64,000 nt of DNA, taken from the NCBI GenBank assembly GCA_002842035.1, contig PHBP01000008.1, positions 1 through 64,000 on the forward strand, read 5' to 3'. The position numbers and the translations under genes were made by a program. The number at the start of each line of letters is the position of its first letter. The stretch's first letter is position 1. Source of the stretch: Candidatus Cloacimonetes bacterium HGW-Cloacimonetes-2 (GTDB taxonomy: Bacteria > Cloacimonadota > Cloacimonadia > Cloacimonadales > Cloacimonadaceae). Below, in pieces: positions 20,745 through 23,268 of the stretch. Under the pieces are notes generated by a model, which worked only from the letters and a program-made list of their open reading frames with translations, did no database searches and was not told where the DNA came from.

Positions 20745-21215
20745 TTAGCCTGTAATGCCAAATCGCCGGGTAGCGATAAATAAAAGCCTGGCTCCGATAT
20801 TAGCCAGGAGTGCTTGCACCAGATTAGCTGGGAATTCCGCCACTGCGGCTCCTATCCCGAAAGCAGGCAGCAGCCAAGTGCCAAAGAAATAGACGATCAC
20901 CATCATCAGACTGCCCAGGATGGGAAAGAGGTAATTGAGAAAAGCCCTTTGGCCTTTGCCCAGACCTGCTATCAATCCTTCCAGACCTTTGGCGACCAGG
21001 GTAATCGGTGCAAAGATCGGGAAGCCGATCAAATCTGCCAGGGCAGAGCCCACTCCGCCTGCGATCATACCCGCTTTGGGGCCGGAGTATAGTGCTGCAA
21101 AGATCACGGCTACATCACCGAAATTGAAGTAACCTCCCCCGGGCAGGGGGATGCGGATCAGGTATGTCGAAAGCATCACCACAACGGTGAAACCGACCAG
21201 ATTATACCATTTCAT
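20745..21215 (-). CDS. ECF transporter S component (vitamin-type, substrate unknown)
   Basis: A 156-residue membrane protein with about five or six hydrophobic segments. Sequences such as LPGGGYFNFGDVAVIFAAL, GPKAGMIAGGVGSALADL and FAPITLVAKGLEGLIAGL are characteristic of S components of energy-coupling factor transporters, which bind a vitamin or related compound. GGAGACATA precedes the ATG. It overlaps the end of the EcfT-like gene by 14 bp. Which vitamin is carried is not apparent; no riboswitch is visible upstream. Confidence 0.85.
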   Translation of the reverse strand: MKWYNLVGFTVVVMLSTYLIRIPLPGGGYFNFGDVAVIFAALYSGPKAGMIAGGVGSALADLIGFPIFAPITLVAKGLEGLIAGLGKGQRAFLNYLFPILGSLMMVIVYFFGTWLLPAFGIGAAVAEFPANLVQALLANIGARLLFIATRRFGITG

Positions 21216-21840
21216 TATGTCTCCTGTGACAGTGTTTGATGCGATTATCGATCAGCTCGCCTTTGCGCTCTGATTCGCTTAAAATTATATAAAGCAGAGC
21301 AAGTAAGTAAGCCAAACGGAGCTGAAACTTGGATTTGAGGGATTTGGGACGGATCTGATTTCCGGGTATCAAAGACAAATACCGGGTGATCCCTGCAAAC
21401 GAAGAGAAAGCCATCTCGTAGAGGGACTTGCCGAGGATGAGGTATTTGAGCTTGGAGATTGAGAGAGGGAGCTTTAGGATATCTTGCCAGGAGATCAGGC
21501 TGCTGAGTAATTGGATTGCAAAGATCACGCTCATCAGGACTAATACGCGTACACCTCCATAACTGACCCAGTATGCGAGGGCAGTACCCGGGGCATTTGC
21601 AGGTTTGAAGCCTAGCAAGGCAAAGATCAAATATACCGCAGCCAGGCTCAGGATAAAGGGGAGTAATAGGTAAAGCTCTTTGAGGTAAGCTCTTGCCCCT
21701 CTGCGAAGGATTAGGAAAAAGCTGGCAATTGCAAAGATGATTAGCTGGATGTCCAGCTTCTGTAGCCAGACAATTCCTACCATCACAAAGAAGATCAGGA
21801 AGGCAATAGTGAGGATGCAGAGTTTAAACAGAGCTTTCAT
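21202..21840 (-). CDS. ECF transporter transmembrane (T) component
   Basis: A 212-residue membrane protein with four or five hydrophobic stretches in its N-terminal and central parts and a cytoplasmic helical portion (KYLILGKSLYEMAFSSFAGI) that would contact the ATPases. The segment replaces the usual A-R-G coupling motifs only loosely, so the protein is divergent. The ATG at 21840 is preferred; an in-frame TTG at 21879 would add 13 residues and overlap the preceding gene more deeply. Order ATPase-ATPase-T-S supports the assignment more than the sequence alone. Confidence 0.7.
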   Translation of the reverse strand: MKALFKLCILTIAFLIFFVMVGIVWLQKLDIQLIIFAIASFFLILRRGARAYLKELYLLLPFILSLAAVYLIFALLGFKPANAPGTALAYWVSYGGVRVLVLMSVIFAIQLLSSLISWQDILKLPLSISKLKYLILGKSLYEMAFSSFAGITRYLSLIPGNQIRPKSLKSKFQLRLAYLLALLYIILSESERKGELIDNRIKHCHRRHNEMV

Positions 21841-22345
21841 AAATGCTTGATAAATATGGTGACTGTGGAATAAAGTCAATATGCTCGGTGACTCCCGTGG
21901 AGGGCTGATGGTGATGATCTGCGAAGATCAGGATCAAATCACTGCTGAGCCCTTGCAGTTTCCTGCAGATATATTCGAGGTGTGCAGATTCGTCTATCAG
22001 AGCGTAAACCGGGCGTGTCTGTTTTGCCAGGGCTTTGGCAAGATCATCCAGCAGGTAATGAATACAGTCCTCCTCGGTCTTGAGCGCTTTGGGATAGTTT
22101 TTCAGAGCGGCATCTGCACGGATGGCATAGAGTTGGCGCATCATCTGCTGTTCAAAATAGAGCAGGTATTGTGAGCTGGCTTGCAGAACTAGTGCCGGGA
22201 TCAGGATCTGCTTTAGGAAGGAGCTCTTGCCAGATCCATTCTCGCCGCGCAGCATATAGGAATTGCCTCTTGTCAGATCCAAATCTTTGTCCATTGACAG
22301 GCTAAAACCGTCCCAGACCCGGTAGCTTCCGCTGCTGATCTTCAT
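21824..22345 (-). CDS. Degenerate ABC ATPase with Walker A/B but no signature motif
   Basis: A 173-residue protein, far shorter than the usual 270-residue EcfA. Walker A GENGSGKSS is intact (residues 34-42), a Q-loop-like FEQQ lies at 64-67, Walker B VYALIDE with the catalytic Glu is at 113-119, and a switch histidine is in ADHHH near 144. The helical region that should hold LSGGQ is missing. It starts 3 bp after the stop of the neighbouring ATPase fragment, which has the signature but no Walker A. Together they could form one complete ATP site at their interface (inference). Coupled to T and S components downstream. Confidence 0.75.
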   Translation of the reverse strand: MKISSGSYRVWDGFSLSMDKDLDLTRGNSYMLRGENGSGKSSFLKQILIPALVLQASSQYLLYFEQQMMRQLYAIRADAALKNYPKALKTEEDCIHYLLDDLAKALAKQTRPVYALIDESAHLEYICRKLQGLSSDLILIFADHHHQPSTGVTEHIDFIPQSPYLSSIYESSV

Positions 22346-22348
22346 CTT

Positions 22349-22705
22349 TTACACTACCAGAATGTCCTTGTGCTCGCCGAACTTTACTATGAGCAGATCT
22401 ATCTCTTTTATCCTGACGGCATCAAGGCTGTCATAGAGGTGGAAAAAGACGATTCTCTCGGCAGGTGATAACAATGCCAATAGTACCATCAGGATTACCT
22501 TTTGCCCTCCGGAAAGCTCTTCCGGGCAAAACTCAGGATGCAACTGATGCGTGCACATTGATTTGAAATGGGAAAAAAGCAGTTCACGTGCAGTATTGTT
22601 GAGATTGTAGAGCAGGAGCTCGTCTTCGAGGAGCTTGTTAGTGATCAGTGGACAGCTTGCGTCACAGATCAAGCGGTCGGGGTACTTGGAAATCAGATCA
22701 AGCAT
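22349..22705 (-). CDS. Minimal ABC-type subunit with signature motif but no Walker A
   Basis: A 118-residue protein. EELSGGQKVILMVLLALLSP (residues 62-81) is a textbook ABC signature region and the following RIVFFHLYDSLD resembles a Walker B/D-loop region in which the catalytic Asp-Glu pair is lost. Nothing upstream of it resembles a P-loop, and the reading frame begins only 15 bp after tRNA-Ser, so there is no room for a full N-terminal half in this gene. It is the first transporter gene in the unit and is followed 3 bp later by the Walker A-containing partner. No clear ribosome site is visible. Confidence 0.7.
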   Translation of the reverse strand: MLDLISKYPDRLICDASCPLITNKLLEDELLLYNLNNTARELLFSHFKSMCTHQLHPEFCPEELSGGQKVILMVLLALLSPAERIVFFHLYDSLDAVRIKEIDLLIVKFGEHKDILVV

Positions 22706-22719
22706 AATATCTATTTTAG

Positions 22720-22809
22720 TGGCGGAGAGTCAGGGATTCGAACCCTGGGTACCCGTAAAGATACAACGGTTTTCGAGACCGTCCCGATCAACCACTCTGG
22801 CAACTCTCC
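22720..22809 (-). tRNA. tRNA-Ser, anticodon CGA
   Basis: The minus strand gives acceptor arm GGAGAGT (starting 22809) pairing with ACTCTCC, discriminator G and an encoded CCA at 22722-22720. The anticodon loop reads TCTCGAAAA with anticodon CGA (codon UCG), there is a long variable arm as expected for serine, and the T loop GGTTCGAATCC is standard. It lies 3 bp after the tadA stop and 15 bp before the first transporter ATPase gene. Confidence 0.96.
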
Positions 22810-22812
22810 ACA

Positions 22813-23268
22813 CTATCTCTTTCTCTTTTCCCGGAAGAAACTTTGCAAAAGTAATGCGCATTGTTCTTCCAGGAGACCACGAAGTAAAATGGGTTGGTGA
22901 TTAAAGCTCTTATCCCTCAAGACGTTGTAGATCGATCCGGCTGCACCGCCCTTGGGGTCTTTGGCTCCATAGACAACAGTCCCAATGCGGCTCCAGATCA
23001 TCATTCCGGCACACATTGTGCAGGGTTCGAGAGTAACGTATAAGCTATAATCGTAGAGGTACTTGATTTTTGAGGTAAGGATTTTGTCAATGATCAATTT
23101 CTCCGCGTGTGCCAGAGGGTCCTGTAGCTGACGAGTGCGATTGTGTTCTGCAAAGACCAGTTCATTGTCTTTCACAAGCACGGCTCCGACCGGGATCTCA
23201 TCCTCGAGCAAAGCCTGTTCCGCCTCTTGCAGCGCAATACGCATCCAGTATTCGTGATCTCTTTTCAT
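22813..23268 (-). CDS. tadA: tRNA-specific adenosine deaminase (TadA)
   Basis: Deaminates A34 to inosine in tRNA-Arg(ACG). The 151-residue protein has the zinc and catalytic motif HAEKLI (around residue 53) and PCTMCAGMM (about 83-91), in the order and spacing of TadA; length is typical. A related guanine deaminase is possible but less likely given the EIPVGAVLVKD start of the fold. The next feature downstream is tRNA-Ser, probably in the same transcript. Confidence 0.92.
   Translation of the reverse strand: MKRDHEYWMRIALQEAEQALLEDEIPVGAVLVKDNELVFAEHNRTRQLQDPLAHAEKLIIDKILTSKIKYLYDYSLYVTLEPCTMCAGMMIWSRIGTVVYGAKDPKGGAAGSIYNVLRDKSFNHQPILLRGLLEEQCALLLQSFFREKRKR

Follow-up and report, generated by a model that had tools for sequence, protein, structure and literature searches.

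In canonical energy-coupling factor (ECF) transporters, EcfT has two coupling helices whose X-Arg-X motifs anchor them in both ATPases, and ATP-driven closure of the ATPases pushes these helices and expels the S component, after which hydrolysis resets the module (PMC10368641). Each site of an ATP-binding cassette (ABC) dimer is built from the Walker A, Q-loop, Walker B, and switch elements of one subunit and the signature and D-loop of the other, and in asymmetric exporters a degenerate site formed from two full-length domains holds an ATP molecule that has been proposed to act as a glue (PMC12038006). Here, we describe a locus of 4 genes in positions 1 to 64,000 of contig PHBP01000008.1 from Candidatus Cloacimonetes bacterium HGW-Cloacimonetes-2 (assembly GCA_002842035.1), a stretch that we refer to as the window. 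The locus encodes 2 short ABC-type ATPases, here called A1 and A2, followed by a membrane protein, T, and an S component, S, and it likely represents an ECF transporter in which A1 and A2 pair to form the motor, with exactly one ATP site between them. We further consider it likely that the second nucleotide site was lost by physical deletion and not just by degeneration, with A1 serving as a P-loop-less signature donor for A2, and with one ATP per cycle and no glue nucleotide.

The A1 protein contained the signature LSGGQ at residues 64 to 68 and the D-loop SLD at residues 93 to 95, and had neither a Walker A motif (P-loop) nor a switch His; its Walker B strand, IVFFHL, was without the Asp-Glu pair. 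The A2 protein contained the Walker A motif GENGSGKSS at residues 34 to 42, the Q-loop residue Gln66, a Walker B motif ending in D118-E119, and the switch His144, and no LSGGQ was present between the Q-loop and Walker B. Our reading of the open reading frames (ORFs) thus agreed with the initial annotation of this DNA, which had described A1 as a product of 118 residues with LSGGQ at the same position, no Walker A, and a degenerate Walker B, and A2 as a product of 173 residues with Walker A, Walker B including the catalytic Glu, and the switch His, but no signature. It had also placed the 2 genes close together and ahead of those for T and S, as we found, although S extends beyond the interval 21202-22705 that it gave.

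A first search covered 61 close genomes, and A1 and A2 were each matched in the same 27 of them. Profile searches were then evaluated across 125 genomes of the phylum Cloacimonadota, in 37 of which the matches to A1, A2, T, and S coincided. These 37 comprised 34 genomes from 10 genera of the family to which the window belongs and 3 genomes from the distant genus g42 of another family, in 2 of which A1 was detected by reading the locus and not by the profile. The gene order A1-A2-T-S and the presence of 2 separate short ATPase ORFs were identical in all 37 loci, with A1 ranging from 111 to 145 residues and A2 from 162 to 189 residues, and the genes mostly abutted or overlapped by a few bases. 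The S profile matched the same 37 genomes and in addition 2 genomes of the genus g19. One scan of the named genome collection yielded 2 weak matches (Spirochaetia and Rhodocyclales), and no ATPase with these motifs was seen there.

Ratios of nonsynonymous to synonymous substitution rates (dN/dS) for close pairs, calculated by the Nei-Gojobori method, were 0.05 to 0.32 for A1, 0.10 to 0.20 for A2, and 0.05 to 0.17 for the T and S pairs, T-S fusions being counted with T; the values come from simple pairwise comparisons, some of them with a large dS. Since the values for A1 and A2 are well below 1, both genes are maintained as proteins under purifying selection. The paired truncated ORFs are real, and neither chance nor decay explains them, because the same 2 truncated ORFs lie side by side in 37 genomes. 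Both the recurrence of the arrangement in related genomes and purifying selection had been named as checks in the initial annotation, which had argued against random decay, and its view was borne out in each respect.

We tallied the motifs in the 37 A1-A2 pairs. The Walker A motif, Gln66, D118-E119, and His144 were present in A2 in every pair (37/37), as was an LSGG[QE] signature in A1 (37/37). The Leu of the A1 D-loop was invariant, and the loop read SLD or ALD in 28 of the 37 pairs and SLS, YLD, or the like in the others. Walker A, the Walker B Asp-Glu pair, and the switch His were absent from every A1 protein (0/37), and none of the A2 proteins had a signature between the Q-loop and Walker B (0/37), the 2 matches to the signature pattern in genomes G021 and G033 being located before Walker A; the D-loop position of A2 was not conserved. 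In A2, the Walker B Asp lies 49 to 52 residues after the Q-loop Gln, compared to 68 to 77 residues in fuller relatives, and this reduction by about 20 residues indicates that the signature region has been shortened, beyond mere mutation.

None of the A1 or A2 proteins in the 37 pairs carried every motif of a full ABC ATPase domain of the EcfA type, yet they are clearly related to it. Counting Walker A, the Q-loop Gln, the signature, the Walker B Asp, the Glu, the D-loop, and the switch His for each site, one composite site keeps 7 of 7 elements and the other has lost 7 of 7. A random loss of 7 out of 14 elements would leave exactly one whole site with a probability of 2/3432 (about 6e-4), an estimate that assumes independent losses; strictly, this does not hold, as several elements share one deletion. 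One site with all catalytic residues could thus be assembled from the Walker A, Q-loop, Walker B, and switch His of A2 and the signature and D-loop of A1. A second site of the degenerate-but-present kind was not found, as A1 lacks Walker A and A2 lacks the signature. The initial annotation had proposed that the pair could build one and only one complete site; the complementarity goes further than was claimed, with the Q-loop, the D-loop, and the switch His following the same pattern.

AlphaFold2 monomer models, each based on a 30-sequence alignment, had a predicted local distance difference test score (pLDDT) of 94.3 for A1 and 93.6 for A2, with a predicted template modeling score (pTM) of 0.88 for both. 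Both models are compact folds. That of A1 begins with a strand and three helices, continues with the Walker B strand and a further helix, and closes with a final strand; this corresponds to the second part of an ABC domain, starting at the strand that precedes the Q-loop and ending with the switch strand. Its Foldseek matches were ABC domains, among them those in the ECF modules 8bms_B (TMq 0.65) and 7nnt_B (TMq 0.67). The A2 model consists of N-terminal strands, the P-loop, two helices between the Q-loop strand and Walker B, and C-terminal strands.

The S component was a member of an established family of ECF S proteins, PF07155 (ECF-type riboflavin transporter S component family), with an E-value of 7e-22 and a score of 78.6 bits against a cut-off of 26.7, and 2 ATPase subunits were encoded together with T in all 37 loci. 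We therefore classify the locus as an ECF type, with an S component and a gene order that fit the definition and ATPases that deviate from it. In the Pfam searches, A2 matched ABC_tran below the curated cut-off, A1 had no ABC_tran match, and T matched no family. TIGR04520 gave nothing over its cut-off in 61 genomes.

Full-length EcfA proteins at this locus in close relatives were what the initial annotation had named as fatal to its proposal, and no relative with this locus encoded them. The sole full-length version was identified in another family, in the 2 genomes of genus g19 that matched the S profile without A1 and A2, and it consists of a single tandem gene that is already degenerate at the same site. 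This tandem ATPase is followed by T and a close homologue of S and was 461 residues long in one genome (L119:2390-4883, G055), while in the other it was interrupted by the contig end (L120, G045). The N-terminal domain is full-length, with NGNENKAF at the Walker A position, a retained LSGGE, and a broken Walker B, and the C-terminal domain retains Walker A, Walker B with its Glu, and the SH of the switch, with LSFAE in place of the signature. The A1 profile aligned to residues 84 to 193 of the N-terminal domain (hhalign 96%, E-value 3.6e-9), and that of A2 aligned to the Walker A motif of the C-terminal domain (hhalign 84%). The tandem system thus resembles the reduced locus in its S family, in the order ATPase-T-S, and in the asymmetry of one good and one dead site in the same order, and differs in having two full-length domains encoded by a single fused gene. 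The tandem ATPase is plausible as an evolutionary intermediate. A plausible path would be that one site degenerated in a tandem EcfA protein, after which the useless parts were lost and the gene was split; this is a reconstruction, and T of g19 had no detectable similarity to the reduced T.

The proposal of a one-site transporter is based on the architecture of the 2 proteins, their mirror-image motifs, purifying selection, the monomer folds, the linkage of the 4 genes, and the asymmetric tandem relative; from these, we infer that A1 and A2 form a heterodimer, that each cycle uses one ATP, that the pair is coupled to T and S, and that a vitamin-like solute is imported. A1 and A2 would pair 1:1, and their heterodimer would hold a single composite ATP site, to which A2 would contribute Walker A, the Q-loop, Walker B, the catalytic Glu, and the switch His, and A1 would contribute LSGGQ and the D-loop across the interface. 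ATP binding would shut A1 onto A2, and this closure would shift the coupling helices of T, so that S is released or toppled; hydrolysis would then reopen the pair.

A different arrangement would be that A1 and A2 reassemble as one nucleotide-binding domain, so that an (A1-A2)2 dimer contains 2 complete ATP sites. The 2 proteins do jointly hold one set of all ABC motifs, and there is a precedent in the SMC and Rad50 proteins, where Walker A and the signature are located on separate segments that rebuild complete domains with two equal sites; the A1 profile also matched the C-terminal halves of SMC proteins. However, A2 has helices of its own between the Q-loop and Walker B along with a full set of core strands, while the sheet of A1 is separate and includes a Walker B strand. 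The pieces thus overlap and do not complete each other, which makes reassembly into one domain unlikely. Moreover, the tandem relative is made up of two full domains in the same order, with A1 similar to the first and the Walker A region of A2 similar to the second. We therefore consider a split cassette of this kind to be unlikely.

Several observations weigh against a transporter with a single ATP site. Ranked by E-value, the best Foldseek matches to the A2 model were RecA-like proteins with TMq values of about 0.4; matches to ABCE1 had TMq values of 0.52 to 0.54, and the result would agree with an ABC core minus the signature region, although this is not strong on its own. T is weakly related to known EcfT proteins (hhalign 39% between the reduced and the fuller T). 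In ECF-FolT, either single Glu mutant abolishes both ATPase activity and transport (PMC10368641), and since that module needs both sites, one-site operation would require a changed mechanism. The inactivity of such single-site mutants would instead fit a role for A1 and A2 as a switch or scaffold that binds ATP without transport-coupled hydrolysis, with S largely working alone, as certain S components are able to transport without the ECF module (PMC4820897). We find this very unlikely, as the Walker B Glu and the switch His of A2 were invariant in the 37 pairs, a pattern that points to hydrolysis.

Another scenario is that the partner of A2 is a complete EcfA encoded by a second ECF operon and that A1 acts as an accessory protein. 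The genome from which the window was taken does contain a second ECF operon with fuller ATPases (L114:3025-6435, located at about 446.5-450 kb of G000:C2), which encodes ATPases of 215 and 193 residues along with a T of the CbiQ type that has two Arg-Gly motifs. However, the T profiles of the fuller operon matched nothing in the near-complete genomes G012, G018, G020, G024, and G035, all of which carry the reduced operon, so it is unlikely that the reduced operon borrows these ATPases; dependence on the fuller module was accordingly rejected. The signature of A1 was also invariant. Taken together, we see only a slim chance for this scenario. Finally, we give practically no credence to the idea that A1 and A2 are pseudogenes of a former full-length EcfA pair, since, short as they are compared to any intact ABC domain, their frames are open and their dN/dS values low in 37 genomes from at least 10 genera, a conservation that refutes decay, and no remnant of a missing half was found upstream.

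We noted that the fuller operons (L114, L115, and L110) had altered signatures, LSFGQ and LSSGM, and that genus g10 contained one fused protein of 438 to 449 residues. The reduced T proteins had four to five hydrophobic segments, with the last segment of the fuller T absent, and at most one of the two coupling-helix Arg residues aligned, all according to weak alignments. They stop just past the last coupling helix (21202-21840 in the window; T genes in L098-L100), seemingly without the final membrane helix of the fuller T. Members of the T family shared a conserved tail, KGExIDNRIxHC. In genus g6, T and S were fused into a protein of 366 residues (L007, L008, L010, and L017-L020), which would fix a dedicated 1:1 pairing of T and S. 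As a clue to the substrate, riboflavin auxotrophy was uninformative: RibH (PF00885) was encoded by nearly every genome of the family, whether or not it had the reduced operon, and therefore gave no pointer to riboflavin dependence.

The features of the region are listed in Table 1. On the minus strand, the order is the tadA-like gene, tRNA-Ser(CGA), A1, A2, T, and S. Only a stop and one codon lie between A1 and A2, and the start of T overlaps the end of A2, a near-abutting and overlapping organization that is compatible with co-translation. The 3' end of the tRNA gene is located 15 nt upstream of A1, in the place where the missing half of A1 would sit, and of 27 loci tested, 16 had the same tRNA upstream of A1. 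An Rfam search upstream of the locus identified just the tRNA and no riboswitch. When intact N-terminal halves of nucleotide-binding domains were searched by tblastn against the roughly 1 kb that precedes A1 in the relatives, nothing beyond chance was found; the positive control worked, and two loci had almost no upstream sequence. Given the nearby tRNA and the lack of a remnant in this search, an N-terminal half of A1 located upstream was rejected.

Table 1. Coordinates of the 4 genes of the locus and of the neighboring features in the window
Feature	Position	Strand	Description
A1	22349..22705	(-)	ORF, 118 aa; half nucleotide-binding domain (strand preceding the Q-loop through switch strand)
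A2	21824..22345	(-)	ORF, 173 aa; reduced nucleotide-binding domain, signature region and D-loop lost
T	21202..21840	(-)	ORF, 212 aa, best start ATG 21840; divergent EcfT-like membrane protein
S component	20745..21215	(-)	156 aa; PF07155
tRNA-Ser(CGA)	22720..22809	(-)	ARAGORN and Rfam; directly upstream of A1, context only
tadA-like deaminase gene	22813-23268	(-)	Upstream of tRNA-Ser(CGA)

Why ABC machines have two ATP sites, and what the degenerate site does in their asymmetric members, are open questions. In the locus described here, neither partner has kept the second site, and the reduced motor is retained across at least 10 genera, with an asymmetric full-length relative available for comparison. 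One-site operation would be surprising because the single mutants of ECF-FolT are inactive and the degenerate site of asymmetric exporters still binds ATP (PMC10368641, PMC12038006). If functional, the pair would be a natural minimal motor of about 290 residues for both ATPases, in which one-site operation, coupling, and stoichiometry are directly testable. In the open-access literature, we found no paper on half ABC domains of this type and none on ECF transporters from Cloacimonadota.

Of the described systems, the canonical ECF transporters (EcfA-EcfA'-EcfT and S, such as ECF-FolT2 from Lactobacillus delbrueckii; PMC4820897, PMC10368641) share with this locus the four components, an S component of PF07155, and two adjacent ATPase genes before T, and the modeled fold of A1 appears similar to that of canonical EcfA (8bms_B and 7nnt_B). 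They differ in that each ATPase encoded here has half of the motifs and in that T is shorter and divergent. The asymmetric heterodimeric ABC transporters, such as TM287/288 and MsRv1273c/72c (PMC12038006), likewise have the residues for hydrolysis at one site only, but they are exporters, and in the pair described here the Walker A, signature, and D-loop of the second site are deleted or lost. Proteins of the SMC/Rad50 type resemble the pair in the location of Walker A and the signature on separate protein segments, as well as in the match of the A1 profile to the C-terminal halves of SMC proteins, whereas in the pair described here Walker B remains with Walker A in A2 and a single site is possible.
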